In this document: in pieces, positions 394 to 20,602 of the stretch
How the letters are laid out: each line of letters begins with the position of its first letter
Position numbering within the stretch: the first letter of the stretch is position 1
Assembly: GCA_026786065.1 (NCBI GenBank)
Contig: JAJAYS010000104.1
Location: 1-22,434 of the forward strand
Length of the DNA: 22,434 bases
Direction: 5' to 3'
From: Polaromonas sp.
GTDB lineage: Bacteria > Pseudomonadota > Gammaproteobacteria > Burkholderiales > Burkholderiaceae_C
Notes under the pieces: model-generated
What the model saw: the letters and a program-made list of their open reading frames with translations, nothing else
The model's database searches: none
What the model was told of the DNA's origin: nothing
Position numbers and translations under genes: made by a program

Positions 394-1431
394 ATGTTCT
401 CCTACCGTCATGCATTCCACGCCGGCAACCACGCCGACGTGCTCAAACACACGACGCTGATCGCGCTAATGCGCTACCTGACCCAGAAAGACACGGCGCT
501 GACGGTGATCGACACCCATGCCGGGGCGGGCCTCTACCGGCTCGATGGCGACTACACCGAAACCGGCGGCGAGGCCAAAGACGGTATCTTCAAGCTGTTG
601 TCTACGTCAAATCAGCCAAAGAGTAAGGTAATACTTGCCCAGGCAGCTACCAAAAAGATAGCGACTACGGCTGCATCGAAGCCGTCAGCCAGCCCCGAGC
701 GGGCTCCCGGCGCATTGAAAAAGCCCGCAACGGACGCGCATGCGGCCTGGGCACCCGCGCTGCAAGCCTATCTGGACCTGTTGAGGAAGCTGAACCCGCA
801 GTTCGCCGAAACCACGGACGCCGCGCACCTGAAAATCTATCCGGGCTCACCGTTCATCGCCCAGCAATTTTTAAGCGGCCGCGACAAGCTCAAGCTGTTC
901 GAGCTGCACCCGACTGATTTCAAGTCGCTGACCGGCAACATCGAACAGCTCGGCGTCGGCCGGCAAGTGACGGCGGCGCGTGAAGACGGCTTCGAAGCCC
1001 TCAAAACCTTTTTGCCCCCACCTGCTCGCCGGGCGCTGGTGTTTTGCGACCCAAGCTATGAAGTGAAGACCGACTACAACCGCGTCAGCACCTGCATCGC
1101 CGACGCTGTGAAGCGCTTCGCCACCGGCACCTACGCGGTCTGGTACCCCATCATTCCGCGACCTGAAGCCCACGACCTGCCGCGCAAGCTCAAGACACTG
1201 GCGGTAAAAACTTCAAGAAGCTGGTTAAACGCGACGTTGACCGTTAAATCCAGCAAGTTAACGACCGATTCTGATGGCGAGGTGGTTCGACCCGGTTTGC
1301 CGGCCAGCGGCATGTTCATCATTAACCCGCCGCACACGCTCAAGGCCGAACTGCAGTCCGCGCTGCCGCAATTGGTGGCGTGGCTGGGGCAAGACCGGAA
1401 CGCTGCATTCACTCTGGAGAGCGGCGGCTAA
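394..1431 (+). CDS. rlmJ: 23S rRNA (adenine(2030)-N6)-methyltransferase RlmJ
   Basis: RlmJ methylates N6 of A2030 in 23S rRNA using SAM. The N-terminus MFSYRHAFHAGNHADVLKHT is the family hallmark; the SAM-binding segment is VIDTHAGAGLY (about 38-48), and the motif IV equivalent is CDPSYEVKTDY (218-228), DPSY rather than the DPPY of E. coli. SGMFIINPP (305-313) is the conserved C-terminal signature. At 345 residues it is clearly longer than E. coli RlmJ (280). The extra length lies mostly at about residues 70-118, a Ala/Lys/Thr/Pro-rich segment that begins with an AT-richer stretch containing a copy of the dispersed repeat (624-663, residues 77-90). Start ATG 394 matches the family N-terminus; ribosome-binding signal is weak (GGAAG, far upstream). 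Divergent from rplM. Confidence 0.92.
   Translation: MFSYRHAFHAGNHADVLKHTTLIALMRYLTQKDTALTVIDTHAGAGLYRLDGDYTETGGEAKDGIFKLLSTSNQPKSKVILAQAATKKIATTAASKPSASPERAPGALKKPATDAHAAWAPALQAYLDLLRKLNPQFAETTDAAHLKIYPGSPFIAQQFLSGRDKLKLFELHPTDFKSLTGNIEQLGVGRQVTAAREDGFEALKTFLPPPARRALVFCDPSYEVKTDYNRVSTCIADAVKRFATGTYAVWYPIIPRPEAHDLPRKLKTLAVKTSRSWLNATLTVKSSKLTTDSDGEVVRPGLPASGMFIINPPHTLKAELQSALPQLVAWLGQDRNAAFTLESGG
624..663 (+). repeat. dispersed ~40-bp repeat, intragenic copy in rlmJ
   Basis: By eye, 24 of 40 positions match the intergenic copy at 20542-20581 in the same orientation, including the core GGCAGCTACC...ATAGCG. It is read in frame as residues 77-90 of RlmJ and lies in a region absent from the shorter family members. 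This is the most diverged copy I list; chance similarity cannot be excluded without a search. Confidence 0.45.
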
Positions 1432-1560
1432 AGTGCACTGGCTGTGGCTCCGTTTGGCAAGCCGGTTTTCACGGCCCCTGAAGCCCGATGAACCCGCACT
1501 TCAACTTAGCCGCGCAATCCCTGCCCTGCCAGCCGAAGTCCGACGCCAAGCTGCACTTTC

Positions 1561-2634
1561 ATGGATTCCCTTTCACAAATTGCATTGGGCGCCGCCGTCA
1601 GCGTGGCCGTGATGGGCCGCCGCACGGCGGTCTGGAAAGCCGCCCTTTCCGGCGCTGTGGCGGGCGCGCTGCCGGACCTGGATGTGCTGATTGACCATGG
1701 TGATCCGATTCGCAACATGGTGCTGCACCGGGCCGAGAGCCACGCCGTGTTCTGGCTGACGCTGTTTTCGCTGCCTTTCGCCGCTCTCGTGGCGCGGGTA
1801 AATGGCCAATGGGCGCTGCGGCGGCGTTGGTGGCTGGCGATGTGGCTGGCCCTCGTCACACATCCCCTGCTCGACGCCATGACGGTTTACGGCACCCAGC
1901 TGGCGCTGCCGTTCTCGAATCATCCTTATGGCGTTGGAAGCGTTTTCATCATTGATCTGCTCTACACGCTGCCGCTTCTGGTCGGCGTAGGCTGGGCGCT
2001 GGCGGGACGCAATAGACACAACACGTACGTCAGCGGGATGGGTCGCGGGCCGGATCCCGGGCTGAGGGCCAATGCGCTTGGGCTGGCCCTCAGCACGGCT
2101 TACCTGGCGTGGGGCGTGGCGGTGCAGCAGCATGTGAGCCAGATTGCCCGCGCGTCACTGCTTAAACAGGGGATCCAGGCCGAGCGTGTGCTGGTCACGC
2201 CGACGCCCTTCAACAGCGTGCTTTGGCGCGTCGTGGCCGTCTCGGGCGATGCCTACCATGAAGGCTTTTACGGATTGCTTGACCGATCGCCGCAGATCGT
2301 TTTCGACGCCTACCCGCGCGGCAACGCCCTGGCCGCCGAGTTGCAGGGCGCAGACAGCGTGCAGCTTCTTCGTGCCTTCAGTCAGGGCTTTTACGGTCTG
2401 CGGGAGGAAGGTGGCCGGGTTTAGATCAGCGATCTGCGCATGGGCCTGGAGCCCGCCTACACCTTCACCTTCGCGGTCGCCGAAAAACACAGCCCCGCCG
2501 TGCGGCTCTCCAAGCCAGAGCAGCTGACCGGCCGGGGTGACATCGCCTGCGGCTTGTCGTGGCTCGGGAAACGGGTGTGGGGCGATGCGCTGCCACCGCC
2601 GGCACGGCTTTGCGGTCGAGCGGTAGAGCCGTAG
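1561..2634 (+). pseudogene. YdjM-like membrane-bound metal-dependent hydrolase, interrupted by in-frame amber stop
   Basis: The first 287 residues match the LexA-binding, inner-membrane-associated putative hydrolase family (YdjM, PF04307): MDSLSQIALGAAVSVAVMG, then ALPDLDVLIDHGDP and HRAESHAVFW, HPLLDAMTVYGTQLALPF and SVFIIDLLYTLPLLVG, with several membrane segments. A TAG at 2422-2424 ends this frame, but the same frame continues directly with ISDLRMGLEPAYTFTFAVAE up to a TAG at 2632-2634. That second part looks like the expected C-terminal domain, so the full product would be about 357 residues and the gene appears recently inactivated by one nonsense change (for example TTG to TAG). A truncated product of 287 residues may still be made; a sequencing error or readthrough are alternatives. 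No clear ribosome-binding site precedes ATG 1561. The reaction of this family is not established. Confidence 0.8.
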
Positions 2635-2716
2635 AGCGGTAGCGGTGAATCACAGATGGGGTCGCAAACCGGGTCAGCACCCGGAAGCTGGAATTGTGTC
2701 GATTAAAGCCTACAGC

Positions 2717-2756
2717 CCAATTAATACGGGCGTATATAGCTACTAATTTTATAGCG
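2717..2756. repeat. dispersed ~40-bp repeat, intergenic copy 1
   Basis: An AT-rich element reading CCAATTAATACGGGCGTATA followed by the partial palindrome TAGCTACTAATTTTATAGCG. About 30 of 40 positions match the copy inside tlyA (14894-14933). It lies in the gap between the broken hydrolase gene and the outer-membrane protein scrap. The remaining gap (2635-2716) holds only a short imperfect tandem of GAGC[G/C]GTA units (about 2618-2645) and nothing else I recognise. Confidence 0.75.
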
Positions 2757-2818
2757 TCGGCTTGCCTCTGGAAGGCGTGTGGAGTCGGCCACAGTGGCTG
2801 ACCGGCCCGCCAGACAGG

Positions 2819-2983
2819 TCAGAAGCGGTAGCTGACGCCGACCGAGAACTTGGGCAGCACCGACAGACGCGCCGTGCTGTCCCGCAGCGATGCGGTTTCG
2901 GCATCGACGTCGGCCTGGGTGATGCCCTGTTTGCCGACCAGACTGGTCGTCGTGTCGGTCTTGAACCGGCCCGCAAGCCGCAA
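2819..2983 (-). pseudogene. C-terminal remnant resembling an outer-membrane beta-barrel protein
   Basis: Directly after the cydB stop, in the same frame, 54 sense codons read on to a TGA at 2819-2821 and end in LPKFSVGVSYRF. Alternating hydrophobic residues with a terminal phenylalanine are the classic end of an outer-membrane barrel recognised by the Bam complex. There is no start codon or N-terminal part, so this looks like the 3' end of a gene whose front was deleted next to cydB. The exact family cannot be named from this scrap; OmpP1/FadL-like or OmpW-like proteins are candidates only. A chance open stretch in GC-rich DNA is the alternative. Confidence 0.45.
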
Positions 2984-4015
2984 TCAGTACTTCAGCGCGG
3001 TGCTCTTGCCCCAGAACACGCGGTAGGCAAACACCGTGTAGCCGACGATCACCGGCAGCACCACAGCGGCGCCGACCAGAATCACCCCCATCGCGGCGGG
3101 CGACGAGGCCGCCTGCCAGAGCGTCAGCTTGTCGATGACCAGCCACGGGAACAGGCTGTAGGCCAGCCCGTACGACGCGAGCAAAAACACGCCAACGGTT
3201 GCGCCAAACGGCACCCAGGCGCCGTACTCGCTGCCCTGCGCCAGACGCACCGGCAGGCGCTGCAGGCTGCGGTAGATGACGGCAAACAGCACCGCAGTGG
3301 CCACCGGAATCGGCAGCAGCAACACGATGTACGGAAAGGCAAACCACTTGGCGAAAATGCTCGGGCTGACCAGCGGCGTCGCCAGCGAAATCGCCGCCAC
3401 CCCGGCCATCGTTAGAAAAAGACTGCCCTTGGCCCAGGCGATGGCGCGCAGCTGCAGCGCGCCTTCGGTCTTGATGATCAGCCAGCCGGCGCCCATCAGG
3501 CAGTAGGCGGCCATCAGCGCGAAGCCGATCACGATGCTGAAGGCGACGGTCCAGGGTGTCGAGTCAAAGCCGGTGATCAGCGAGCCCAGCATGTAACCCT
3601 GGCTCCAGGTTGCCAGCAGCGAGCCGGCGTAGAACGCCCGGTTCCATAGCGGTTTTAGCGCGGCGCGCGCCTTGACGCGAAAGTCGAACGCGACGCCGCG
3701 CAGCGTCAGCCCGATCAGCATCAGCGCGACCGGCAAATAGAGCGCGCCCAGAATCACGCCGTGGGCGCGCGGAAATACCGTCAGCAAAATGCCGACGCCG
3801 AGCACCAGCCAGGTTTCGTTGGCGTCCCAGAACGGGCCGATGCTGGCGATCATCGTGTCTTTTTCGTCGTCGCTGGCCTGGCGCATCAGCATGCCGACGC
3901 CAAGGTCGTAGCCGTCGAGCACCACATAGGCGAGCATCGCCAGCCCCATCACGAGGACAAAAACAATCGGCATCCAGCCGGCCGGCTGCGTCAGGTCGGG
4001 GGCGAGATCAAGCAT
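2984..4015 (-). CDS. cydB: cytochrome bd-type quinol oxidase subunit II
   Basis: CydB is the second membrane subunit of the bd-type terminal oxidase, which oxidises quinol and reduces O2 to water without pumping protons. The 343-residue product shows the family features: an early segment with VLDGYDLGVGML, then GPFWDANETWLVLGVGILLTVFP, GVAFDFRVKA, and about eight to nine hydrophobic helices. ATG 4015 is chosen because it gives the usual CydB N-terminus and overlaps the cydA stop by 8 bases (4008-4015), so translation is probably coupled. The longer open frame upstream is only cydA read in another frame. No small CydX-type gene is visible downstream; the next sequence is an outer-membrane protein scrap. 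Confidence 0.95.
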   Translation of the reverse strand: MLDLAPDLTQPAGWMPIVFVLVMGLAMLAYVVLDGYDLGVGMLMRQASDDEKDTMIASIGPFWDANETWLVLGVGILLTVFPRAHGVILGALYLPVALMLIGLTLRGVAFDFRVKARAALKPLWNRAFYAGSLLATWSQGYMLGSLITGFDSTPWTVAFSIVIGFALMAAYCLMGAGWLIIKTEGALQLRAIAWAKGSLFLTMAGVAAISLATPLVSPSIFAKWFAFPYIVLLLPIPVATAVLFAVIYRSLQRLPVRLAQGSEYGAWVPFGATVGVFLLASYGLAYSLFPWLVIDKLTLWQAASSPAAMGVILVGAAVVLPVIVGYTVFAYRVFWGKSTALKY

Positions 4016-5426
4016 GCGCCTGTCCTTCTTTTTCGGGGTAGTTGGCGACGTTGGGCTGGTCTTCCAGGTCGGCGTCGGCGCCGAGCGGCAGGCCGGAATG
4101 TTTGCGGTGTCGGGCCAGGTAAAACACCACCGACACATAGGCCACGATCAGCGCGGCATAGAGCGTCAGGTAAAGCGCCAGCGTCAGTGCGATGCGGGGC
4201 GCGGTCACGTTCGAGGCCGCGTCGGCCGCCGTCAGGATGCCGCTAACCAGCCAGGGCTGGCGCCCGATCTCGGTGGTGTACCAGCCGGCAAGCAGCGCCA
4301 GCCAGCCGGCAAAGGTCATTGCCACCAGCACCTGCGCCTGCCAGCGCTTTAGCTCGCGGCCCGGCGCGCTGGGCGTGGCCTTTTTCCACGGCGCGAGTTG
4401 CCAGGTACACAGCCAGCTCACCGCCAGCATCAGCAGCCCGGTGCCCACCATGATGCGAAAGGCCCAGAACACCGGCCCCACCGGCGGATGCGCACCCTTG
4501 AAGTCGTCCAGCCCCTTGACCTCGCCATTGATGTCGTGCGTCAAATACAGCGAAGCCAGTTTGGGGATGGCGATTTCGAATTTGTTCGACCGCGTGGCCT
4601 CGTCGGGAATGGCAAACAGCACCGCCGGCGCGCCGCGTTGGGTCTGCCAGATGCCTTCCATCGCTGCGACTTTGGCCGGCTGGTGCTCCAGCGTGTTCAG
4701 GCCGTGCAGATCGCCGGCAATAATTTGCAGCGGGATCAGCACTGCCGCCAAATAAACGCCGGTTTTCAGCCCAACCCGCACCTCAGGGCTGCGGTCGTCC
4801 CGCAGCCAGCGGTAGGCCGACAGCCCGGCCACCAGAAACGCCACCGTCAGGCCAGAGGCCAGCATCATGTGGGTCAAGCGATAGGGGAAAGACGGGTTGA
4901 AGATCACCGCCAGCCAGCTCGTCACATGTGCCTGGCCGTCGATCATCTCGAAGCCGGCTGGCGTGTGCATCCAGGAGTTGAGCGCCAGAATCCAGAAGGC
5001 CGACATGCTGGTGCCTGCGGCTACCAGAAAGGTTGCAAGCGTGTGCATGCGCTCGCTGACTCGCTCGCGGCCGAACAGCATGACGCCGAGCATCGTCGCC
5101 TCCAGGAAAAACGCGGTGAGCACTTCATAGGCCAACAACGGGCCGGCGACGTTACCGACTTTCTCCATGAAGCCGGGCCAGTTGGTGCCGAACTGAAAAC
5201 TCATCGTGATGCCGCTGACCACGCCCAGCGCAAACGTCAGCGCAAAAATCTTCACCCAGAACTGGTAGGCGTCCATCCAGTGCTCGCTGCGGGTCTTGAC
5301 GTAGCGCAGCTTGAAGAACAGCAGAACCCATCCCAGCGAAATGCTGATGGTCGGAAACAGAATGTGAAAAGTCATGTTGGCCGCAAATTGAATGCGCGCC
5401 AGCAGCAGGGGGTCCATGCCGTCCAT
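4008..5426 (-). CDS. cydA: cytochrome bd-type quinol oxidase subunit I, short Q-loop (CioA-like)
   Basis: CydA carries the hemes and the quinol site. Visible landmarks: ARIQFAANMTFHILFP (the His is the heme b595/d-side ligand equivalent to H19 of E. coli), GITMSFQFGTNWPGF, the glutamate-rich helix YEVLTAFFLEATMLG, the quinol-loop motif GDLHGLNTLEHQPAKVAAME, and GWYTTEIGRQPW near residues 380-391. At 472 residues it is about 50 shorter than E. coli CydA, the difference being the C-terminal part of the Q-loop; this and LHGLNTLEHQPAK fit the cyanide-insensitive CioA group. Start: ATG 5426 has AGGA about ten bases upstream; ATG 5417 (residue 4) is possible. First gene of the cydAB pair. Confidence 0.95.
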   Translation of the reverse strand: MDGMDPLLLARIQFAANMTFHILFPTISISLGWVLLFFKLRYVKTRSEHWMDAYQFWVKIFALTFALGVVSGITMSFQFGTNWPGFMEKVGNVAGPLLAYEVLTAFFLEATMLGVMLFGRERVSERMHTLATFLVAAGTSMSAFWILALNSWMHTPAGFEMIDGQAHVTSWLAVIFNPSFPYRLTHMMLASGLTVAFLVAGLSAYRWLRDDRSPEVRVGLKTGVYLAAVLIPLQIIAGDLHGLNTLEHQPAKVAAMEGIWQTQRGAPAVLFAIPDEATRSNKFEIAIPKLASLYLTHDINGEVKGLDDFKGAHPPVGPVFWAFRIMVGTGLLMLAVSWLCTWQLAPWKKATPSAPGRELKRWQAQVLVAMTFAGWLALLAGWYTTEIGRQPWLVSGILTAADAASNVTAPRIALTLALYLTLYAALIVAYVSVVFYLARHRKHSGLPLGADADLEDQPNVANYPEKEGQAHA

Positions 5427-5616
5427 CGAGGTTGTTTCCTATCCTTTTTGACAAGATGTTGGCCGCATTCACGGCCCGCGAATGGCGGCCGAAGGACATG
5501 AAAGCGTTCGTCCATTCGTGCAACCAGACGCAAGTGTCTGTCAGGGGATGCGTCTGCGCTGGGCGGCGCCACAAGACCCGCACGTTCACGCTGCTTATGA
5601 GCCGGAGACAAAACTG

Positions 5617-5743
5617 CGCAGTGGCCGGGACCACCGAAAACACCCGGTCATCCCGCGCTTGACTCGGGATCCATGCCCTTTCGGGCTGCCGGGGTGGATA
5701 CCGGCTCGGTTGCCAGGATGACCGAAATACGCAGTGGCCGGGA
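5617..5743. repeat. intergenic repeat element with inverted and direct repeats
   Basis: The 14-base word CGCAGTGGCCGGGA occurs at 5617-5630 and again at 5730-5743. Between them is an element bounded by inverted 8-mers GGTCATCC (5646-5653) and GGATGACC (5716-5723), with an internal segment CGGGATCCATGCC and the near mirror GTGGATACCGG. This is the style of the GTCATCCC...GGGATGAC intergenic repeats seen in many proteobacteria. It carries no open frame of its own. Confidence 0.65.
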
Positions 5744-5757
5744 TGACAGCCGAAAAA

Positions 5758-5797
5758 CGCTATCTATTTCATAGCTGCATACACCCAAATTAATCGG
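5758..5797. repeat. dispersed ~40-bp repeat, intergenic copy 2 (inverted relative to copy 1)
   Basis: Reads CGCTATCTATTTCATAGCTG then CATACACCCAAATTAATCGG, which is the same element as at 2717-2756 in the opposite orientation. It lies in the gap between cydA and the hybrid kinase, directly after the inverted-repeat element at 5617-5743. Confidence 0.65.
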
Positions 5798-5889
5798 CTT
5801 TTAGTCGCTTTTCACAATTTATTTTCACGCCCAGCCTCTGGCAAGCCTCTGCAGCACGGAACCCAAAACTTGGGCTTGTGGGTGGTCGC

Positions 5890-8763
5890 TCAGGTGGCTG
5901 CCCGGACTTGCAGCACGCTGGCCAGCATGCCTTCAACCGCATCCGGGTCCGCCGGCTTGGTCATGTGGGCATGAAAGCCCGCCATTTTTGATTTCCTGAT
6001 GTCTTCTTCGGTGCCCCATCCGGTCAAGGCAATCAGTCGCGTCGTCGCCGTGGCCGGATCGGCAAGCAGCCTTCGCGCCACTTCATAGCCGTTTATGTCC
6101 GGCAAGCCGATATCGAGAAACACCACGTTCGGGCGAAACGAGCGCGCGATCTCCAGTGCTTCCTGGCCGCAGAAAGCCGTACGTGTCTCATGACCAGACA
6201 GTTCGAGCAGCATGGCCATGGTTTCTGCGGCGTCCACGTTGTCGTCGACCACCAGAATCCGGTGTCCGGCAACCGGAGGGTTGACAGGACGCGCTGCCGG
6301 CTCGGCTCGCGCGGCTGCCTCGGCTGCGGGCACCGACGCTGTTGGCAGGGTCACCGTAAATTCGCTTCCCAAATCAAAACCACCGCTGGCCGCCTGAACC
6401 GAGCCGCCGTGCATTTCAACCAGCGACTTGACCAGCGACAAACCGATGCCCAAACCGCCCTGCGAACGATCAAGCGTGCGGTTGACCTGCATGAACATGT
6501 CGAACACCGTACCCAGCATGTCGGCCGGAATACCCATTCCGGTGTCCCGCACCGAAATCAAAACGCTGTCCCCCTCCTGTCGCGCCGAAAATTTAATTTG
6601 GCCGCATGCGCGCATGTACTTGGCAGCGTTGGTCAGCAAATTGCTGAAAATCTGTGCCAGTCGGGTCGGGTCAGCATCCAGCCAGACGGGCTGGTCTGGC
6701 CATTCAAGAATCAACGAATGCGCCAATGCGTCAATGAATGGCCGCGACGCCTCCACCGCGGCAGCGGCGACCTCCTGAAAAGCCACGCGCTTGCGTTGCA
6801 ATACGATCTTGCCGCTGCTGATGCGCGAAACGTCGAGCAGATCGTCAACCAAGCGCACCATATGCCCAAGCTGACGCTCAATCACCGGCAGGGTACGAGC
6901 CGCGACATCGCTTTTTGCCGATAGCTGGAGGAGCTGCAAACCGGTACGTATCGGTGCCAGCGGGTTGCGCAGCTCATGCGCCAGCGTCGCCAAAAATTCA
7001 TTTTTGCGCAGATCCTGCTCTAAAAGCTGCTGCTCGTAAGCCCGGCGGTCGGTGACATCGTGCGTCACTGCGAGTACGAACTCAACCTGCCTGTGCTCAT
7101 TGAACTCGGGCACCAGCCGGGAGGAAAAATGTCGCAACCCCTCGGGGGTCGGAAAAGAAAAGTCGAGCGATCCGTGAACCGCATGGTCAAACACGTGACG
7201 AATCGCTTTTTCCCATTCTTCGCACAGCTCTTGCGGCATACCTACTTCCCGGCTGGTTTTACCGAGAATTTCGGCCACTGGGCGACCGGTGATTTTTTTG
7301 ATTACGGAGTTGGCAAATACATGCCGAAACTGGCGGTCAAAACGCGCGAGAGAGTTTGGCGTATTTTCAGTCACGTTGCGCAGTTCGCGCTGCCGCCGGG
7401 CCAGCTCCTGGGTCACCCGCACCTCAGCCGTGCGGTCAACACCGTGAACAAAAATACCTGTCACGTGGCCATCGGCTTCATGCAACGGCAGATAAGCGAA
7501 GTCGACAAAAATATCGACCAGACTTCCACCCGGCCCGCGCGGCACGCTAACGACCATGGACTTGGCTTCAAAGGGCTTGCCCGTGCGGTAAACCTCTTCG
7601 AGCAAGGCCGGAAAAGGCTGAACGACGATTTCAGGGAGAGCTTCAACAAGTGTTTTTCCGATGATTTCCGGGCCGCGCCCGATCAGGTCGAAGTAAGACT
7701 GGTTGGCCAGTTGAAAAACAAAGCGGGGGCCGGCCAGCACGGCCGAAAACGACGGCATCACCTGCATCATCTCGGAAAGCTGCCGCTCTTTAGCCAGCAG
7801 ATTTCCTTCGGCCCGCGCATGCTCCACGGCAGACCAGGTGCGCTCGGCGATTTCCCGCGCGATCGATAGGTCTTCAGGAGTCCAGTCCCGCGGTGTTTTT
7901 TGATGAACGCCGAGGACTGCAGCCAGAGCGCCGTTTCGCATAATTGGAATGAGTAGATTGGCACCCATCTCCAACTTGGCATAGGCGGCCTTTTCGCTCT
8001 CCGAGTAGGCACAATCACCAGCCACGTCGGGCACCACAATGTCTTGCCCCGACTTTAAAGCGGCTAGCAGGAGCCTCGGGCCATAGTCGTCCAGGTTGTA
8101 GCTGCCCTCAATCTGCTGCACGCCGTTGCCATAGCTCTGCCCGACCACCAAGGTTGCTTCACCAACCACTTCGCCATACATGACCCTGCTGGCCTCCAGG
8201 TGCAGGCACAGTAGGTGGGATGCCACACCCTTGAGCGCATGCTCGTCCTTCAGGTCGCGCGTAGCGTCACCAAATAAGCTGCGGAATGTCTCGCGGTCAG
8301 CCACCCGCCGCAGGGCATCCTTGCGCTGGCGAAGTTCGCGCGCCATAGCCCAGCTTTCGCTGGCGTTTTCGACCGCCCGGTTCAACGCCTGTGGGCTGCT
8401 CCAGTCTTTACCAATGTAGTCTTGAGCGCCCGCGCGCAGCGCGCGCCGGCCGTGTTCCCGGTTGATGCCGCCGGTCATCACCACCACCGGGCACACCGGC
8501 ATGCCGTCCGGCCCTTTAAGCGCAGCCAGCACGTCAGGCGCCTCCATTTCCGGCAGGTTGTAGTCGAGCATGATGCAGTCGGGGGGCAGTACCGCACCCA
8601 GCACCGCCTGGATGCCTGCTTCAGCCGTTCCAGCCTCGATGAAGCTCAGGCGCCGGTCCGAACCCTTAAGCAGCAAGCGGCGAATTTCCGCGCGATCCTC
8701 CAGGCTGTCGTCAATGATGACGACGCACCAGGGCTTCAAGACCTCTTTTTCTGCGTTCGCCAT
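5890..8763 (-). CDS. hybrid histidine kinase, REC-GAF-PAS-PAS-HisKA-HATPase-REC
   Basis: The 957-residue protein has no membrane segments and is probably cytoplasmic. Domains: N-terminal receiver (about 12-130; acceptor Asp67 in CIMLDYNLPEM, Lys119); GAF (about 165-315); two PAS domains (about 335-445 and 455-575, the second ending in THDVTDRRAYEQQ); HisKA with His596 in FLATLAHELRNPLAPIRTGL; HATPase (about 695-808) with N box NLLTNAAKY and GMGIP, LGIGL; C-terminal receiver (about 834-950; Asp884 in FLDIGLPDINGYEV, Lys936). Start: ATG 8763 overlaps the stop of the upstream response regulator as TGATG; the TTG at 8766 just before it is a less likely start. Last gene of the bphO-bphP operon. 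Receivers at both ends suit a phosphorelay: the front one could take phosphate or an input from BphP, the rear one would feed an unseen phosphotransfer protein. No DNA-binding domain. Confidence 0.92.
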   Translation of the reverse strand: MANAEKEVLKPWCVVIIDDSLEDRAEIRRLLLKGSDRRLSFIEAGTAEAGIQAVLGAVLPPDCIMLDYNLPEMEAPDVLAALKGPDGMPVCPVVVMTGGINREHGRRALRAGAQDYIGKDWSSPQALNRAVENASESWAMARELRQRKDALRRVADRETFRSLFGDATRDLKDEHALKGVASHLLCLHLEASRVMYGEVVGEATLVVGQSYGNGVQQIEGSYNLDDYGPRLLLAALKSGQDIVVPDVAGDCAYSESEKAAYAKLEMGANLLIPIMRNGALAAVLGVHQKTPRDWTPEDLSIAREIAERTWSAVEHARAEGNLLAKERQLSEMMQVMPSFSAVLAGPRFVFQLANQSYFDLIGRGPEIIGKTLVEALPEIVVQPFPALLEEVYRTGKPFEAKSMVVSVPRGPGGSLVDIFVDFAYLPLHEADGHVTGIFVHGVDRTAEVRVTQELARRQRELRNVTENTPNSLARFDRQFRHVFANSVIKKITGRPVAEILGKTSREVGMPQELCEEWEKAIRHVFDHAVHGSLDFSFPTPEGLRHFSSRLVPEFNEHRQVEFVLAVTHDVTDRRAYEQQLLEQDLRKNEFLATLAHELRNPLAPIRTGLQLLQLSAKSDVAARTLPVIERQLGHMVRLVDDLLDVSRISSGKIVLQRKRVAFQEVAAAAVEASRPFIDALAHSLILEWPDQPVWLDADPTRLAQIFSNLLTNAAKYMRACGQIKFSARQEGDSVLISVRDTGMGIPADMLGTVFDMFMQVNRTLDRSQGGLGIGLSLVKSLVEMHGGSVQAASGGFDLGSEFTVTLPTASVPAAEAAARAEPAARPVNPPVAGHRILVVDDNVDAAETMAMLLELSGHETRTAFCGQEALEIARSFRPNVVFLDIGLPDINGYEVARRLLADPATATTRLIALTGWGTEEDIRKSKMAGFHAHMTKPADPDAVEGMLASVLQVRAAT

Positions 8764-13418: not shown

Positions 13419-13433
13419 CTTGTTGCGCCGCGC

Positions 13434-14270: not shown

Positions 14271-14332
14271 GGTCGAACCTCTTTGCTTGATGCGTAATTT
14301 TTATTGCGGGGGGCGCGGCTTCAATCTGGTCT

Positions 14333-15355
14333 TCAGTCTGGCTCGGGCTTGGCGCGCCGTTTGCCGCGCGCCGGCCCGTGCTGGCCGGCGTGCGCTTCTT
14401 CCGAGTCTTCGTGGGCGGCGTGCAGCGCACGCAGTTCGCTGCGCGGGGTGCGTTTTGGCAGGTTGCGCGCTGGCGCCGCCACCAGCGGCTGGTCTTCACC
14501 GGCCACGTTCTGGCCTTTTCTGGCGTGGATGAAAAACTCGCGGTTGCCGTCGCCGCCGGCAATCGGCGACTCCAGCCAGTGCAGTACCTCACAGCCCAGG
14601 CTGGTGCAGGCATCGCGCACGCGTTTTTCGACAAACTCGAACAGCGCCGGCTCGCGCACGATGCCGCCTTTGCCGACCTGCCCCGGCTGCAACTCGAATT
14701 GGGGCTTGACCAGCATCAGCGCATCGCCACCGGGCTTTAGCAGCCGCACGACTGCAGGCAGCACCAGCGTGAGCGAGATGAAGGACAGATCGCCGGTCAA
14801 AAAGTCGAAAACCGGATCGAAGCCGTCCTCGGCCAGCGCCTGCGCGTACAACGCCGATTCTGACTCGCGTTCATCATCAGACTGACCTTTAAACCATGTA
14901 AAACGGGCGTAACCAGCTATTAATTCAGTAGCGGTTAGCGACCGGGCGTTAATGCCTTCAAGACACACCACACGCGCATCCTCACGCAAGCTGGGGTGCA
15001 GCTGGCCGTGACCGACATCGACCCCGACGACCTGCGCCGCGCCGTGCTGCAGCAGGCAATCGGTGAAGCCGCCGGTCGATTGGCCGATGTCGAGGCAGCG
15101 CAAGCCGGTCACCGTCACGCCGGTTGCCTTCAGCGCGCCTTCGAGCTTTAGCCCGCCGCGCGACATGTATTTGGCTTCGGTGTTGTCGAGGATGTGGAGT
15201 TCGGCGCCGGCCGGTATTTCATCGCCGTTCTTGGCGATTTTTTTCCACGCGCCGTCGACAGCAGCCCGCCACTCTGCCCCCGCCCCTATCAGGCGCTGGG
15301 CCTGCGAGCGGGTGGTGGCAAAGCCGTGTTCAACCAGGAAGAGATCAGCGCGCAT
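14333..15355 (-). CDS. tlyA: TlyA-family rRNA 2'-O-methyltransferase, with in-frame insert
   Basis: TlyA-family proteins (often annotated hemolysin A) have an S4 RNA-binding domain followed by an RrmJ/FtsJ-type methyltransferase fold and methylate ribose in 16S/23S rRNA. Here S4 covers about 1-60 (MRADLFLVEHGFATTRSQAQ, then YMSRGGLKLEGAL), the SAM motif is CLDIGQSTGGFTDCLLQHGA (87-106), followed by GVDVGHGQLH and GDLSFISLTLVLP. Between GINARSL and GFDPVFDF (about 139-178) there is an unusual acidic insert containing a copy of the dispersed repeat (14894-14933), and the C-terminus carries a charged Arg/Lys/Glu tail, giving 340 residues against roughly 250-300 for the family. Start ATG 15355 fits the family N-terminus; ribosome-binding site weak. 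Lies between ahcY and metF. Confidence 0.9.
   Translation of the reverse strand: MRADLFLVEHGFATTRSQAQRLIGAGAEWRAAVDGAWKKIAKNGDEIPAGAELHILDNTEAKYMSRGGLKLEGALKATGVTVTGLRCLDIGQSTGGFTDCLLQHGAAQVVGVDVGHGQLHPSLREDARVVCLEGINARSLTATELIAGYARFTWFKGQSDDERESESALYAQALAEDGFDPVFDFLTGDLSFISLTLVLPAVVRLLKPGGDALMLVKPQFELQPGQVGKGGIVREPALFEFVEKRVRDACTSLGCEVLHWLESPIAGGDGNREFFIHARKGQNVAGEDQPLVAAPARNLPKRTPRSELRALHAAHEDSEEAHAGQHGPARGKRRAKPEPD
14894..14933. repeat. dispersed ~40-bp repeat, intragenic copy in tlyA
   Basis: Reads CCATGTAAAACGGGCGTAAC then CAGCTATTAATTCAGTAGCG; about 30 of 40 positions match the intergenic copy at 2717-2756. On the coding strand it is translated as ATELIAGYARFTW and sits in a stretch that ordinary TlyA proteins lack. 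The surrounding bases (14870-14945) are AT-richer than the rest of the gene, in keeping with an insertion that kept the frame open. Confidence 0.8.
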
Positions 15356-15400
15356 AAAAAGTGTCGAGTCAGTCTGTTCCGTCAGCCGTTCGCAGAGGAT

Positions 15401-15541
15401 CAGGGAGAGGGCTTTGTTCCCTCTCCCCGCAGGAGAGGGTTAGGGTGAGGGCTCCCCGTTCCCATCCGTCTCGTAACCAGTCGATGCCGCACCCCAGGAC
15501 CCCTTCGACAGGCTCAGAACGGGCCCGCCCTCTGCCGAAGG
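15401..15541. repeat. two GC-rich intergenic repeat motifs between ahcY and tlyA
   Basis: The 202-base gap (15356-15557) holds a hairpin CCCTCTCC/GGAGAGGG (15419-15426 with 15432-15439) followed by TTAGGGTGAGGG, and a second element bounded by CCTTCG (15502-15507) and CGAAGG (15536-15541) that contains TTCGACAGGCTCAGAACGGG. Both words recur in altered form inside uvrA (21789-21915). They lie within the presumed ahcY-tlyA-metF transcript. Confidence 0.65.
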
Positions 15542-15557
15542 ACAAGGGCGCAAGAGA

Positions 15558-17012
15558 TCAATACCGATAGCTATCGGCCTTGTACGGGCCTGCCTTGGAC
15601 ACGCCGATGTACGCCGCCTGCTCGTCACTCAGCTCGCTGAGCATTGCGCCGACCTTCTTCAGATGCAGGCGCGCAACTTTTTCATCCAGGTGCTTGGGCA
15701 GCACATAGACCTTGCCGACTTCGTATTCAGCCTGCTTGGTGAACAGCTCGATCTGCGCAATCGTCTGGTTGGCAAAGCTCGACGACATCACAAAGCTCGG
15801 GTGACCGGTGCCGCAACCCAGGTTCACCAGCCGGCCCTTGGCCAGCAGGATGATGCGTTTGCCGTCCGGGAAGATCACATGATCAACCTGCGGCTTGATC
15901 TCTTCCCACTTGCATTTTTCCAGCGCCACCACGTCGATTTCATTGTCGAAATGGCCGATGTTGCAGACGATGGCCTGATCCTTCATGGCCGCCATGTGGT
16001 CGTAAGTAATGACGTTTTTGTTGCCGGTGGCCGAGACAAAAATATCGCACTTGTCGGCGGCGTATTCCATCGTCACGACCTTGTAGCCTTCCATCGCGGC
16101 CTGCAAGGCGTTGATCGGGTCGATCTCTGTCACCCACACTTGAGCGGACAATGCCCGCAGCGCCTGCGCACTGCCCTTGCCCACGTCGCCGTAACCGGCA
16201 ACCAGCGCGACCTTGCCGGCAATCATCACGTCAGTGGCGCGCTTGATCGCATCGACCAGCGACTCGCGGCAGCCGTACAGGTTGTCGAACTTCGATTTCG
16301 TCACCGAGTCGTTCACGTTGATGGCGCGCAGAGCCAGCGTGCCCTTGGCCGACATTTCGTTCAGGCGCAGCACCCCGGTGGTGGTTTCCTCGGTCACGCC
16401 GACGATGTTTTTCAGGCGGCGGCTGTACCAGGTCGCATCTTGCGCCAGCTTGGCCTTGATCGAATTGAACAGGCAGATTTCTTCTTCGCTGCCGGGCTTG
16501 GAAAGCAGGCTGGCGTCTTTCTCGGCCCTGGTGCCCAGGTGCATCAGCAGCGTGGCATCGCCGCCGTCATCGAGGATCATGTTCGGACCTTCTTCCGGCG
16601 TGCCCTTGGCGCCCGAGAATTCGAAGATGCGGTGGGTGTAGTCCCAGTAATCGGCAAGCGTCTCGCCCTTGATGGCGAACACTGGCGTGCCGGCGGCCGC
16701 GATGGCGGCGGCGGCATGGTCTTGCGTCGAAAAGATGTTGCACGAGGCCCAGCGCACGTCGGCACCCAGCGCCTGCAGGGTTTCGATCAGCACGCCGGTT
16801 TGAATGGTCATATGCAGCGAGCCCGTGATGCGCGCGCCCTTGAGTGGCTGCGCCTTGGCGAATTCTTCGCGGATTGCCATCAATCCCGGCATTTCGGTTT
16901 CGGCGATTTTCAGTTCTTTGCGGCCCCAGGCGGCGAGCGACAAATCGGCAATCGTGTAGTCGGGGGTGGCGGGGGTGTAGGGGGCGAAAGACGGTTTCAG
17001 AACAGCACTCAT
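15558..17012 (-). CDS. ahcY: S-adenosylhomocysteine hydrolase
   Basis: AhcY splits S-adenosylhomocysteine into adenosine and homocysteine, relieving product inhibition of methyltransferases. The 484-residue tetramer-forming enzyme shows [20 protein letters not shown] (60-79), [20 protein letters not shown], the NAD-binding [16 protein letters not shown] (from 273), the insert region [18 protein letters not shown] typical of the long bacterial/eukaryotic form, and the conserved C-terminus ending [11 protein letters not shown] 17012 has GGAG ten bases upstream. It is the first gene after the SAH riboswitch (17121-17190) and precedes tlyA and metF on the same strand. Confidence 0.97.
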
Positions 17013-17120
17013 GGGTTTTCTCCAGGATCAAATCATCAAGCTCGGCAAGATAGCCACGGGCATGACGCAAGTCGAAAGCAGGGGAACAGATTCGTTCACC
17101 CGTGCCGGACAGCGCATGCG

Positions 17121-17190
17121 GGTGAGCGTGGTTGCAAATGAAGTCCTGAGCCTGGTCCACGTGATGTGGCTTGCAACGCTCCTCAGGAGG
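17121..17190 (-). promoter_or_regulatory. S-adenosylhomocysteine (SAH) riboswitch upstream of ahcY
   Basis: On the minus strand the leader has the conserved SAH riboswitch blocks in order: GAGGAGCGTTGCAAG (17187-17173), CCAGGCTCAGG (17154-17144) and TTGCAACCACGCTCACC (17137-17121). GAGCG pairs with CGCTC and TTGCAA with TTGCAA to form the main stem; CCTGAG of the middle block can pair with the CTCAGG-type sequence at the 5' end as the pseudoknot. This class is known from Beta- and Gammaproteobacteria upstream of ahcY and raises expression when SAH accumulates. A -10-like TAAAAT (17196-17201) would start transcription right at the aptamer edge; I see no good -35. The 108 bases between aptamer and ATG contain no obvious U-run terminator. 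Confidence 0.9.
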
Positions 17191-17301
17191 ACGAGATTTT
17201 ACAGCATGCGATAACTGGAGACCCTCTGCATAACCCCCGCGGCCTGCGATCGGCCGGCTGGGGCGGTCTGCAGTTGCAAGATTACCCGGCGCTGCCCTGG
17301 A

Positions 17302-17487
17302 CTGCCGCCGCCGCCCGACCGGTACCGAGCCATTGCGGCCCAGCTGCAGCAGACGGGGCAAACCATAGGCGCAATGGACACCCTGATCGCCGCCCAGGCG
17401 CTGGCCGAAGGCCTGATTCTGGTTACGCACAACACCCGCCACTTCGAACGTATCCCGGACCTGAAACTTGACGACTGGATGGTGTGA
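17302..17487 (+). pseudogene. VapC-type PIN-domain toxin, C-terminal remnant
   Basis: The plus strand reads RYRAIAAQLQQTGQTIGAMD, TLIAAQALAEGLILVTHNTR and HFERIPDLKLDDW before a TGA at 17485-17487. This is the C-terminal half of VapC ribonuclease toxins (PIN domain), with the acidic residue of GxMDxLIAA and the xTHNTRHF strand. There is no start codon and no N-terminal half, and no antitoxin gene beside it, so it is a decayed fragment. The sequence between it and the ahcY leader (17222-17301) is not recognisable. Confidence 0.75.
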
Positions 17488-17554
17488 ACCGCTTGCCGCC
17501 ACGGCTGGGGCAGACCATCGATCTTGACCCCCGTGGGCATGCGAAAATTTTGCA

Positions 17555-18430
17555 ATGCAAGACCTCCAACGCTGGCCCACTGCTGCCAGGCGCGGCATCA
17601 CAGGGGTGCTGACGGACATCGACGACACGCTGACCACCAACGGCGCGATCACGCCAGACGCGCTGGCTGCATTGCATGCTCTGAAAGCTGCTGGCCTGCC
17701 GGTGCTGGCGGTGACCGGCCGCCCGGTTGGCTGGAGCGAAGCCTTTGCGCTGGCCTGGCCGGTGGACGCCATCGTGGCGGAGAACGGGGCGGTGATGCTG
17801 TTTCGCAGCCAACCAGCCGATTGCCTGGTAACTGCGCATCACACCCGCTTGCAGCAAAATGTATCTGGACGTAACCAGCTATCTAAAGCATATCAACTGG
17901 CGCCGGCCACACGCGTCGCCAACCTGGTCCGCATGCAGCGCGTAGCGGAGCGCCTGCTGCGCGAGGTACCGGGTGCGCAGTTGGCACGCGACAGCGCCGG
18001 CCGTGAAACCGACCTGGCTATCGACCACAGCGAATTCACCACGCTGCCGCCCGAACGCATCGCCGACGTGCTGCGCATCATGCAGGCTGAAGGCCTGCAG
18101 GCCACCGTCTCGTCGATTCACATTAACGGCTGGTTCGGCAGGCACGACAAGCTGCAGGGTGCGCGCTGGGCGGTCGGGGAACTGCTGGGCCGCGACCTGG
18201 ATGCGGAGTTGGCGCAGTGGGTTTTCGTTGGCGATTCGACCAACGACGCGTTGATGTTCGAGGCCTTCCCCAACTCGATCGGCGTGGCTAATGTGGCGCG
18301 CTTCGCGGCGCAGCTGGCGCACAAGCCGCGCTACGTGACGCGAGGTGAGCGGGGCGAAGGGTTTGCTCAGGTGGTGCAGAGCCTGCTTGACGCCAGGCAG
18401 GTCGGCCGCAGCAGGTTGTTGCGGGCTTGA
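17555..18430 (+). CDS. HAD-superfamily (type IIB) sugar-phosphatase-like hydrolase
   Basis: A 291-residue HAD phosphatase: motif I LTDIDDTLTTNG (nucleophile Asp21, acid Asp23), motif II VLAVTGRP (Thr54), motif III Lys in GRHDKLQGARW, motif IV VFVGDSTNDALMFEAFP. The C2-type cap places it with the Cof/sucrose-6-phosphate or trehalose-6-phosphate phosphatase-like branch; the substrate cannot be read from sequence. Residues about 85-115 form an atypical stretch that includes a copy of the dispersed repeat (17857-17895). ATG 17555 fits the motif I spacing; no strong ribosome-binding site. It stands alone, convergent with the DUF4399 gene. Confidence 0.88.
   Translation: MQDLQRWPTAARRGITGVLTDIDDTLTTNGAITPDALAALHALKAAGLPVLAVTGRPVGWSEAFALAWPVDAIVAENGAVMLFRSQPADCLVTAHHTRLQQNVSGRNQLSKAYQLAPATRVANLVRMQRVAERLLREVPGAQLARDSAGRETDLAIDHSEFTTLPPERIADVLRIMQAEGLQATVSSIHINGWFGRHDKLQGARWAVGELLGRDLDAELAQWVFVGDSTNDALMFEAFPNSIGVANVARFAAQLAHKPRYVTRGERGEGFAQVVQSLLDARQVGRSRLLRA
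17857..17895. repeat. dispersed ~40-bp repeat, intragenic copy in the HAD phosphatase gene
   Basis: Contains ATGTATCTGGACGTAACCAG then CTATCTAAAGCATAT; the 11-base run CGTAACCAGCT(AT) is identical to the tlyA copy, and the flanks match with a one-base shift. It is read in frame as NVSGRNQLSKAY, within a segment that seems extra compared with related phosphatases. Confidence 0.6.
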
Positions 18431-18470
18431 GCCCCCGCGCAGGCGTTGCGCTCGGTGGGCTACCGCAGGT

Positions 18471-19292
18471 TCAGTTCATTGTTACCGCAAAGGCAACCGG
18501 TTTGCCCTTGGTCATGACGCTGCCGGCCGGCGTGTTGCTGACCAGTTCAAGTTGCGCTGTGTAGTCGCCGACGGGCGGATTGAGCCACACCTCGGTCTGG
18601 CCGGCGTTCAGCGTCAGCACTTCCGGCTTGCGCCCCGGTCTCTCCAGCGTCAATCTGAAATGACCGGTCTCGGGGACCTGCACCGCAGCGTGCGAAATAC
18701 CGTAGCCGCTGGCATGCATCTGCAACCGGAACGGCGGGCGAATGGTTTCCCGATCGGTCGGGCTGAGAATTTCTACCCGGCGCTCTCCTTTCAAGCTTTC
18801 GGGGCTCACGTCCTTGTTCTGCTTGGTGACCGTGATGTTCATCGGCTTGCTAAATATAAAGTACGGGATGTGCGCCTGGTCAGCCAACAGCATGCGCATG
18901 TCGTACGTGCCTGGCGGCAAGTTGACTACGGCTTCCATCTGCCCTTTACCAAAATGCAGATAGCGGTCTGTAAAGGGCAGCGGCTTGGCAAAATCAAGCG
19001 GCAGCGGCTGGTTGATGAGCAGGTGGTGATGGCCGGCCCGGCCAGCGACCTGGCCGGCTGGAACAAGGCCGCGCATTGACAGACCAAAACGTGCAACAAA
19101 AGGTGACTCGTACGAGCCGCCGTTCTTGAGGTTGGTGAAATAGCTTTCAGGCGAATGCGGCGAAGGAATCACCCATGTATGCAACGGAATCTCGGGCATT
19201 GCGGCGATGGCCGCACCGGTGTTTGCCCGGGCGCCCGCGCAAAGCGCGCTTGCCAGAAAAACCGAAACGAGCCAAGTCTGGTGCTGAGTCAT
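18471..19292 (-). CDS. secreted DUF4399-domain protein
   Basis: The 273-residue protein begins with a signal peptide (MTQHQTWLVSVFLASALCAG, cleavage likely after ARA at residue 23), so it is probably periplasmic. The segment AGRAGHHHLLINQP (84-97) and the following GQMEAVVNLPPGTYDMRMLLAD carry the DUF4399 signature; the C-terminal half (about 165-273) looks like a second beta-sandwich, ending TKGKPVAFAVTMN. The function of the domain is unknown; the clustered histidines hint at metal binding, which is inference. ATG 19292 has GGAGG upstream at good spacing. The 166-base gap on its upstream side (19293-19458) shows nothing I recognise. Confidence 0.85.
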   Translation of the reverse strand: MTQHQTWLVSVFLASALCAGARANTGAAIAAMPEIPLHTWVIPSPHSPESYFTNLKNGGSYESPFVARFGLSMRGLVPAGQVAGRAGHHHLLINQPLPLDFAKPLPFTDRYLHFGKGQMEAVVNLPPGTYDMRMLLADQAHIPYFIFSKPMNITVTKQNKDVSPESLKGERRVEILSPTDRETIRPPFRLQMHASGYGISHAAVQVPETGHFRLTLERPGRKPEVLTLNAGQTEVWLNPPVGDYTAQLELVSNTPAGSVMTKGKPVAFAVTMN

Positions 19293-19458
19293 AAAACTCG
19301 CCTCCGTGCTGTCGTTGTAAAAAACCATTATTTGGTTACAGAAAGTATCCACGAACAGCCAGGGAAGCGTCTCGCACCGTACTCATGGAAACAACAGCGC
19401 AACAAAAAAATGGCTCAAGCTGTGCGATTCTTCCGGTTTTGTACGCAGAGCCAACGGC

Positions 19459-20433
19459 TCACGGCCCCTTGGCCAGCCCCAGTTTTTCGATCAGCGTCTT
19501 CTCGCGCAAAAAAGTCTCTTGGGCAAATCTGGTGTAGTCGGCGCTGCTCATGTACATCGGCAGCATGTCGTACTTGCCAAGCGACTGGGCGTAGCTGGGC
19601 TCGTCCATCGCTTGCTTGAAGGCGTCGTGCAGCCGCTTGACGACGGTCGGCGGCGTGTCGCGCGGCGCGCCTAGGCCGAAGGGCGAGGCCTGCACCATGT
19701 CCAGGCCAAGTTCTTTCAGCGTAGGCGCGTCGGGAAAGCGCGCCAGCCGCTGATCGCCCCAAGTGTTGAGCACCCGCAGCTTGCCGGCTTCGACCTGCGC
19801 CGCGAAGCCGGTCGAATCGGCGGCGGCCATCAGGTTCCCGCCCAGGATCGACTGCATCAAATCGGCGCTGCCTTTGTAGGGCACATGCAGCAACTGCAGC
19901 CCCAGCTTCTGCGCGATCAGCTCCATCGTCAGGTGTGGGCTGGTGAGGTTGCCTGTCGAGCCGTAGCTGAGCTTGCCCGGATTGGCCTTGGCATAGGCGA
20001 CGAAATCACTCCAGGTTTTCAGCGCTGAATCGCTGGGCACGACGACGCCGAACGCATAGCCGGTGACGTTCAGCACATAGGCGATGTCCTTGACCGGATC
20101 CCAGTTGATTTTGGTGGTGTAGGGCAGCCGGAACACGCCAAGCGGGATCTGCGCGATGGTGTAGCCGTCGGCCGCGGCGCCCTGCAGCTGCTGCGCCGGC
20201 AGCGTACCGCCAGCGCCGGGCTTGTTTTCAACCACCACCGGCTGACCGAGAATTTTCGACGCGTTGTCGGCTAGTTGGCGCATCGTGATGTCGGTCGGGC
20301 CGCCAGCCGGGAAGGCGATGACCAGCTTGATCGACCGGGCCGGAAAGGACGTGGCATTGGACTGCGCCAGACCGGGCAGTACAGGCATGGCAGCGCAGGC
20401 GGCCGCAAGCTGGATGAGTGAGCGTCGTTGCAT
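19459..20433 (-). CDS. Bug/TctC-family tripartite tricarboxylate transporter solute-binding protein
   Basis: A 324-residue periplasmic binding protein. The N-terminus MQRRSLIQLAAACAAMPVLP has a twin-arginine-like signal, cleaved probably after GLAQ (24). The mature protein shows the Bug hallmarks: FPARSIKLVIAFPAGGPTDI, LGQPVVVENKPGAGGTL, DGYTIAQI, GKLSYGSTGNLTSPHL and VPYKGSADLMQSILGG. Bug proteins bind small carboxylates or similar ligands; the ligand cannot be told here. There is no TctA/TctB membrane gene nearby, as is common for the many orphan Bug genes of Burkholderiales. ATG 20433 is preceded by AGGAG at seven bases; the longer upstream frame is non-coding. Confidence 0.94.
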   Translation of the reverse strand: MQRRSLIQLAAACAAMPVLPGLAQSNATSFPARSIKLVIAFPAGGPTDITMRQLADNASKILGQPVVVENKPGAGGTLPAQQLQGAAADGYTIAQIPLGVFRLPYTTKINWDPVKDIAYVLNVTGYAFGVVVPSDSALKTWSDFVAYAKANPGKLSYGSTGNLTSPHLTMELIAQKLGLQLLHVPYKGSADLMQSILGGNLMAAADSTGFAAQVEAGKLRVLNTWGDQRLARFPDAPTLKELGLDMVQASPFGLGAPRDTPPTVVKRLHDAFKQAMDEPSYAQSLGKYDMLPMYMSSADYTRFAQETFLREKTLIEKLGLAKGP

Positions 20434-20541
20434 GAAAAATCTCCTGAAGGTGTAGCGTGCAGTGGACCTCTTCAGCCCTGCCGTTTCAATTCGGGTTGAC
20501 CCCGCCGATCTGTATTTAATAAGGCAAAATTGACATCTGGC

Positions 20542-20581
20542 CCAATGAATACGGGCGTAAGTAGCTATAAAAATCGTAGCG
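20542..20581. repeat. dispersed ~40-bp repeat, intergenic copy 3
   Basis: Reads CCAATGAATACGGGCGTAAG then TAGCTATAAAAATCGTAGCG, in the same orientation as 2717-2756. It sits 21 bases beyond the uvrA stop, in the 169-base gap between uvrA and the Bug gene. The rest of the gap (20434-20541) must hold the Bug promoter, which I could not define. Confidence 0.75.
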
Positions 20582-20602
20582 ACTGCGGGTTTGGCAGGCC
20601 GC

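Follow-up and report, generated by a model that had tools for sequence, protein, structure and literature searches.

The stretch of Polaromonas sp. DNA analysed here, hereafter the window, comprises 22,434 bp of contig JAJAYS010000104.1 (assembly GCA_026786065.1) and contains six copies of a dispersed repeat, three between genes and three within them. This repeat is probably a non-autonomous element of approximately 78 bp that resembles the repetitive extragenic palindromic (REP) sequences, is linked to a HUH/Y1 transposase of the REP-associated tyrosine transposase (RAYT) type and tolerates insertion in frame. The element is abundant in many genera, is present or absent at the same position within orthologous genes, favours one reading frame per strand, lies at the 3' end of RAYT genes in carriers and not in the non-carriers tested, and fits there the sequence dialect of its own genome. 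The question it addresses is how mobile DNA adds protein sequence without killing the gene. Within the literature searched, the family, its size, the share of its copies in genes and its coupling to a RAYT in these genera appear to be new; searches, one of them with the core letters, found no description of the repeat, with subscription journals thinly covered and synonyms unmatched.

Repeat unit and copies within genes

The original prediction described a palindromic family of about 40 bp, and all six stretches that it listed in the window were found where it had placed them. Profile searches with a model of the window's own genome group them as one repeat family, so this part of the prediction stands; the length and the palindrome do not. 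The unit is approximately 78 bp, the 40 bp spotted by eye corresponding to columns 27–66, and it is directional, not a full palindrome. When 72 copies drawn from 22 genomes were aligned, they filled 78 columns with a single gap in one row and gave the consensus nnTTTnAAGnnAAATnGGCCTnTAGCCCAnnnAAnACGnGCGCAAGCAGCTATTAAATnnATAGCAA, followed by an ill-defined tail. Strong conservation in this alignment is limited to the right hairpin, AGCTAT-n7-ATAGC. The element is approximately 40% GC (hand count on the own-genome consensus) and its copies are dispersed. Sense frame +0 reads approximately xFKSNRPxAxxxxAQAAIKLIA and one antisense frame approximately AINLIAACAxxxWAxGLFDLK; judging from these translations, one copy within a gene would add roughly 20–25 residues to the host protein.

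A profile built from 21 copies of the same genome recovers four of the window copies at E-values of 2.2e-18 to 3.1e-7. The copies in rlmJ and in the HAD-type phosphatase gene, which had been described as more diverged, are indeed weaker (E 0.014 and 0.098, against 3.1e-7 or better for the other four). With the model retrained on the window's own genome, five of the six copies score clearly. One Markov-resampled version of the window DNA contained no match of at least 8 bits, and resampled DNA of the same size none of at least 10 bits. The assembly to which the window belongs measures 2.93 Mb and is 83.6% complete; all 150 candidates scored in it match (E 3e-12 or better, 48.9–86.7 bits), a count that is a lower bound because 891 first-look candidates were found and 150 were scored. 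Polaromonas sp. P2-4 carries 60 copies of at least 15 bits in 400 kb of its complete chromosome against none in resampled DNA, so that the frequency of the motif, on which the original prediction hinged, is far above chance; extrapolated from these 400 kb, the chromosome would hold approximately 900 copies. Pieces of four further genomes (G035, G121, G120 and G099) carry 17.5–30.8 copies per 100 kb, densities that are biased because the pieces sit at or near known matches; density is likewise biased for the own-genome contigs, which were selected for holding matches.

Gene content was assigned with a home-made gene caller to 211 sampled copies from six genomes. Wholly inside called genes, in both orientations, are 75 of these (P2-4 22/60, own genome 10/46, G035 12/37, G121 7/21, G120 9/20, G099 15/27), which together with the window genes bears out the prediction that the repeat is dispersed and found in reading frames in either direction. 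Mid-gene copies, defined as those between 8% and 88% of the gene, number 60/211 (P2-4 17, own genome 10, G035 11, G121 7, G120 1, G099 14); the in-gene copies of G120 lie nearly all at gene ends. Gene bodies are avoided by the element, since 74% of random 49-mers in P2-4 are expected inside genes and the share of the element is far lower, and this avoidance is far weaker than the term "extragenic" implies. One frame per strand, sense +0 or one antisense frame, accounts for 57 of the 75 in-gene copies. When every copy is counted, within genes or not, the same frames are most often free of stop codons in the majority of the six genomes, with ties in the own genome (sense) and in G035 (antisense), and the frame bias is therefore what selection against broken genes would leave. 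By coordinates, the three window genes represent three readings: sense +0 in rlmJ, sense +1 in the HAD-type gene and antisense in tlyA.

Host genes in G099 identified by family models include LpxB, subunits of the xanthine-dehydrogenase type, NAD(P)H-hydrate dehydratase, two enzymes of the DAO family, a urate-oxidase-type protein and a DUF748 protein with two copies in its one gene. Those of the window's own genome include PutA, glucose-6-phosphate isomerase (pgi), GatA and UbiA, and for one further own-genome host protein (L012) no NCBIfam family matched. The putA gene of this genome (L026 74–3253) contains three copies of the element. Should whole genomes match the sampled densities, each genome in several genera would have between tens and a few hundred genes with repeat-derived in-frame segments, those of housekeeping enzymes among them.

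A functional RNA or transcription signal, such as a terminator or mRNA stabiliser, held in place by selection and not mobile, would account for the placement of the intergenic copies. For 101 of these both neighbours are known, and 93 lie in convergent (32) or codirectional (61) gaps, with 8 in divergent ones. Likewise, only 1 of 20 copies in G120 is mid-gene, and the right hairpin is paired in 91% of cells. This explanation is improbable given the 75 copies that lie within genes in both orientations and a covariation that is not above shuffled controls; with pair counts and no covariation, RNA structure is not claimed. Fourfold sites within the rlmJ copies also change at nearly the background rate (31% vs 35% elsewhere). 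For the tlyA copies the values are 26% and 40%, and synonymous constraint is not claimed from either gene because the copies compared were picked by detectability.

Insertion into genes and age of the copies

The original prediction placed the in-gene copies in extra segments of otherwise conserved proteins, and this holds for RlmJ and TlyA. The RlmJ structure (PDB 7p8q) matches the window protein in two pieces, query residues 1–75 and 143–328, leaving residues 76–142 unmatched opposite 15 chain residues, and the TlyA structure (PDB 7s0s) leaves residues 147–182 unmatched opposite 3; both structures are without the segments. Distant orthologues carrying the same residues would have spoken against insertion; order-level RlmJ relatives were instead mostly aligned in two pieces around the extra segment. 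The element does lie inside the RlmJ segment and does not make up all of it, as the segment is approximately 45–50 residues and the element approximately 24. Among 29 rlmJ orthologues from congeners, a recognisable copy at the same site is present in 16 and absent from six (L211–L213 and L215–L217); six more have a segment with no recognisable element, and one is incomplete.

Of 29 further tlyA orthologues from congeners, 7 have a copy in roughly the position of the window copy. For the HAD-type gene, a copy of at least 10 bits (up to 49.5) lies in the gene at 11 of 19 same-genus orthologue loci and at none of four outside the genus, a count that leaves out L262–L264; in five congeners the corresponding region of the gene scores 38–50 bits. 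Because of these 11 loci, the weak HAD copy of the window is most likely the decayed remnant of a real insertion. On sequence comparison, the rlmJ, tlyA and HAD copies in the window are old insertions common to congeners. A further case concerns a putative uvrA gene, assigned from its CPxCxGxRLN motif. In genome G239 this gene is extended in frame by a segment that contains the element in antisense orientation (16.4 bits); by alignment the segment is also present in G221, and it is absent from seven congeners. The nucleotide alignment of the filled and empty sites is too loose to define the ends of the element. Taken together, insertion into genes is supported by the presence and absence of the copy in rlmJ, the apparent uvrA case and the PDB homologues that lack the segments. 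Shared insertions could be dated through orthologues and element-free relatives, which would make the long-standing question of the passage from mobile DNA to protein testable.

The age of these insertions raises the alternative that the family expanded long ago and is now inactive, its copies being fossils that decay by descent. The three window insertions common to the genus speak for it. So does the syntenic region compared between the window and nine congeners, where for 44 of 62 copies a counterpart is detectable at the corresponding position of another genome (hand count), with graded decay. Because of these shared places, the bulk of the copies is judged to be old and recent movement is not supported. 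A fossil family would sit less well with the many high-scoring copies of the window's own genome (all 150 scored), with the distinct dialect in each genome examined, or with the apparent uvrA copy in two congeners that is missing from seven, and it is considered somewhat unlikely.

Association with a RAYT-type transposase

The Y1 transposase family PF01797 is found in 147 of 200 genomes of the same family, comprising 48 of the 52 element carriers and 99 of the 148 non-carriers (hand count, uncorrected for kinship), a non-carrier being a genome with no match at E 1e-6 in the 200-genome search. At the 20 of the 48 PF01797 carriers whose locus was examined, the gene product has a median of 234 residues, with the HUH and Y..NPVR motifs in 20/20; one carrier RAYT scored 72.2 bits against the NCBIfam REP-associated tyrosine transposase model, under its cut-off of 80. 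At many RAYT loci the ends resemble GGGGTCAGATTC and GAATCTGACCCC. These ends, and GGGGTCAG, fit the terminal inverted repeat (TIR) motif GGGGWSAS described for TIRtrons by Di Nocera et al. (PMC3733652).

Between the RAYT stop codon and the right end, an element copy or remnant in the same direction as the gene scores at least 7.6 bits at 9 of the 20 carrier loci. The right part of the element, a piece around GCTATnAAATTT, exceeds the 99% random level upstream of GTCCC at 13 of the 20, in 12 of them at exactly 5 nt. The same test gave 0 of 13 testable non-carrier loci (Mann-Whitney p 2.7e-5, uncorrected for kinship), where seven of 20 loci were excluded for having no GTCCC in reach and some open reading frames (ORFs) were called in the wrong frame (HUH motif in 18/20). 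In non-carriers the locus ends are present at many loci, and at the 13 testable loci the element piece is absent. At two loci a copy lies just upstream of the RAYT gene (L270, 40.8 bits; L284, 34.1 bits and in the opposite direction), and at the G035 locus (L276) the RAYT stop codon falls, by eye, inside the element. Four RAYT loci of named Polaromonas were also checked, two of six PF01797 loci having been dropped (L333 and L334, no ORF with the motif); RGN.1 has a copy of 18.3 bits and two others a remnant by eye.

The RAYT-adjacent copy scores best with the model of its own genome in all four genomes for which such a model exists (own vs other-genome model 49.4/29.7, 25.4/20.2, 40.4/32.9 and 26.7/8.7 bits); four further RAYT-adjacent copies without an own-genome model were left out of this comparison. 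In a 1.07-Mb sample, the motifs at the ends of this locus do not exceed their resampled frequency, so the element is the sole abundant motif at the locus among those sought. The RAYT link offers a candidate enzyme, and the dialects a natural specificity experiment.

In the mechanism proposed here, the element would spread, or have spread, with a RAYT-type Y1 transposase that in most genomes is a single gene and whose 3' end itself bears the element, intact or as a remnant. The transposase may process the folded right hairpin as single-stranded DNA; the TnpAREP of E. coli is reported to act on its REPs in this form in vitro (PMC8266576). New copies would then join elsewhere in the genome. Those that strike promoters or break frames would be lost, and those 3' of genes, or in frame at tolerant sites of proteins, would persist and decay slowly. 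A bolder form of this proposal, put forward tentatively as possible, is that the element is maintained throughout the family by a Y1 transposase, mostly single-copy and probably domesticated. With an open frame on each strand, the element would add roughly 20–25 residues at a time to core enzymes, and very many proteins per genome would have been lengthened in Polaromonas-like bacteria. If true, such a transposase-maintained system would far exceed the Rickettsia elements as a source of protein sequence made from repeats.

Several results weigh against the RAYT-linked, REP-like explanation. RAYT genes are common in non-carriers too, the carrier G141 is 99% complete and has no PF01797 match, and none of the three PF01797 loci of the window's genome has the element at its 3' end. 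Seven of the 20 carrier loci fall below the 99% threshold, and no remnant was seen at the RAYT locus of the named Polaromonas strain A23. The RAYT-adjacent copies may descend from one ancestor, and a local copy would follow the dialect of its genome even as a bystander. Compensatory change in the hairpin is at the level of shuffled alignments, with the covariation score reached by 185/500 shuffles, the paired-cell count by 123/500 and the number of pairs changed on both sides by 35/500. As a 5' tag of the right hairpin, GTAG occurs in only 3 and 2 of the 72 copies (two strands) and CGTC in only 1 and 1. Hairpin 1 is missing from the G035 dialect; swapping its arms among six dialects gave a mixed outcome. 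To these are added the shared places of the syntenic region, described above, and the six genomes with an element-free rlmJ, which have no family match each and may simply lack the family.

A conventional miniature inverted-repeat transposable element (MITE), moved by a DDE transposase or another enzyme, would reduce the RAYT neighbourhood to an ancestral coincidence. Like the MITEs ERIC and NEMIS/Correia, the element is short, non-autonomous and dispersed; the RAYT-adjacent copies could trace to a single ancestral insertion, and G141 carries the element with no PF01797 match. Terminal inverted repeats were not visible by eye in the 72 copies, no dedicated test having been run. The fit of the RAYT-adjacent copy to its own dialect in 4/4 genomes, and the abundance of the element alone among the locus motifs sought, also make a MITE distinctly unlikely, and the RAYT-linked element is preferred.

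The chromosome of G015 has 20 PF01797 matches, against one or two in most of its relatives. Several of the scores are identical, as if a different Y1 transposase had recently multiplied there.

Distribution, known repeats and window features

The repeat family is spread over many genera. Matches were found in 39 of 61 genomes of the same genus, own genome included (26/31 among the better assemblies), and in 52 of 200 genomes of the family, again including the own genome. Genome G216 of the same genus shares its match coordinates with G201, the genome of the named locus of Polaromonas sp. RGN.1. An order-wide draw of 300 genomes, searched with another model, gave five matching genomes, four of them from the same family; the fifth has a single weak match, and its assembly is 6% contaminated. 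Absences in these searches are soft because scoring, under stricter filters, was confined to the top 77 (genus), 23 (family) and 15 (order) candidates of each genome. Some same-genus genomes, G231, G234 and G553 among them, have few or no matches where near relatives have many, and such patchy congeners could date the loss or decay of the family. In named public genomes the core pattern occurs at no fewer than 86 loci, at least 23 of them from Polaromonas (9 genomes); the loci outside Polaromonas look like chance matches, though they were not checked singly. Twelve of those listed are from Psychrobacter (L034, L045, L054, L056, L071, L081, L086, L088, L092, L104, L109 and L116), and may represent a single conserved gene with a chance resemblance to the core.

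The element is also present on four plasmids examined, from Diaphorobacter HDW4A, C. testosteroni (pI2), Pseudomonas (pADP-1) and E. coli (pP11b). On the Diaphorobacter plasmid, cobN is flanked by two inverted copies (L326 407–477 and 4502–4568). On pP11b, a copy (44.7 bits with the G120 model) lies in an integron cassette ORF annotated as DUF1010, between dfrA12 and aadA2 (L325 1396–1686); this cassette may derive from a chromosome of the Comamonadaceae type. Pfam DUF1010 matches residues 31–95 of the ORF, a stretch that starts with the translated element, which serves as a warning for annotation.

Among known systems, the closest are REP/RAYT (TnpAREP), REPtrons and TIRtrons (Nunvar 2010; Di Nocera 2013; Corneloup 2021), which likewise consist of many short hairpin repeats. 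Shared features are copies that lie mostly 3' of genes, with some in ORFs and divergent gaps avoided, and a gene for a Y1/HUH transposase, as a rule single in the genome, that has a repeat copy at its 3' end. Unlike REPs of 20–40 bp, the unit here is approximately 78 bp, lacks the GTAG/CGTC tag and has a large in-gene share in several genomes, as in G099. Intragenic REPs, including one in uvrA, have been described in other bacteria (PMC3733652), so this kind of element is already known. The main texts of PMC3733652, PMC2817692 and PMC6006769 yielded no Comamonadaceae names in a search that covered these texts and not their supplements.

The original prediction named the Rickettsia palindromic elements (RPEs) as the precedent. 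The likeness is upheld in that both insert in frame into protein-coding genes, among them genes for housekeeping enzymes, and the closest kind is REP/RAYT, not the Rickettsia elements alone. To our knowledge no transposase link is known for RPEs, unlike the one proposed here, and they belong to another lineage. Their length is approximately 150 bp (PMC10969869).

Hot et al. (2011) described a beta-proteobacterial repeat element (BRE), and its identity with the present repeat was considered, as BREs are reported from Polaromonas sp. JS666 (29 copies) and relatives, sometimes wholly within coding sequence (PMC3110155). The Bordetella BRE is described in the same source as 75–91 bp long with a mean of 69% GC and tandem at some loci, whereas the present element is AT-rich and dispersed. 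P2-4 also has a separate repeat that fits the BRE description. That the two are the same is barely credible, and BRE identity was rejected on GC content, tandem pattern and this separate repeat, the two being set apart by the description of BRE. The BRE-like repeat of P2-4 lies around L126 9628–9847 (P2-4 169628–169847); the segments shown are 44–88 bp, 61–75% GC and partly tandem at a spacing of 83–84 bp. A third repeat of P2-4, possibly a MITE, is 162–174 bp, starts with GGGAAGCTCTGCATAACTCC or similar, has an inverted CTATTGGC motif and occurs at 17323, 133968, 175084, 175350 and 254655.

The window copies and their host genes are given in Table 1. The core of the tlyA copy (14885–14933, plus strand) scores 42.8 bits with the own-genome model, and that of the last intergenic copy (20533–20581, plus strand) 57.0 bits. 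The tlyA product scores 165.3 bits against NCBIfam TIGR00478, below the cut-off of 185.8.

Table 1. Copies of the element in the window and the genes that contain them
Feature	Coordinates	Strand	Evidence
rlmJ (rRNA large subunit methyltransferase J), extra segment of approximately 45–50 residues	394..1431	+	PDB RlmJ, E 4e-56
Element in rlmJ, sense, frame +0 (...LAQAATKKIA)	601..672	+	33.9 bits, own-genome model
Intergenic element	2691..2768	+	56.3 bits, own-genome model (2700–2765); covariance model 72.6 bits, E 3e-20
Intergenic element	5749..5814	-	27.3 bits, E 3.1e-7 (21-copy profile); 35.8 bits, own-genome model, core 5758–5806
tlyA (rRNA cytidine-2'-O-methyltransferase family)	14333..15355	-	PDB TlyA, E 1.1e-44
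Element in tlyA, antisense to the gene, read ATELIAGYARF	14871..14945	+	45.7 bits (21-copy profile)
HAD-type phosphatase gene	17555..18430	+	Weak PDB phosphatase match, best E 4.8e-8
Probable decayed element in HAD-type gene, sense, frame +1	17857..17904	+	10.4 bits, own-genome model
Intergenic element between two minus-strand genes	20516..20593	+	Covariance model 73.8 bits, E 1.2e-20

An Rfam scan of the window at gathering thresholds returned a SAH riboswitch only, which lies at 17117–17190 on the minus strand (55.4 bits), upstream of a minus-strand gene at 15558–17012.

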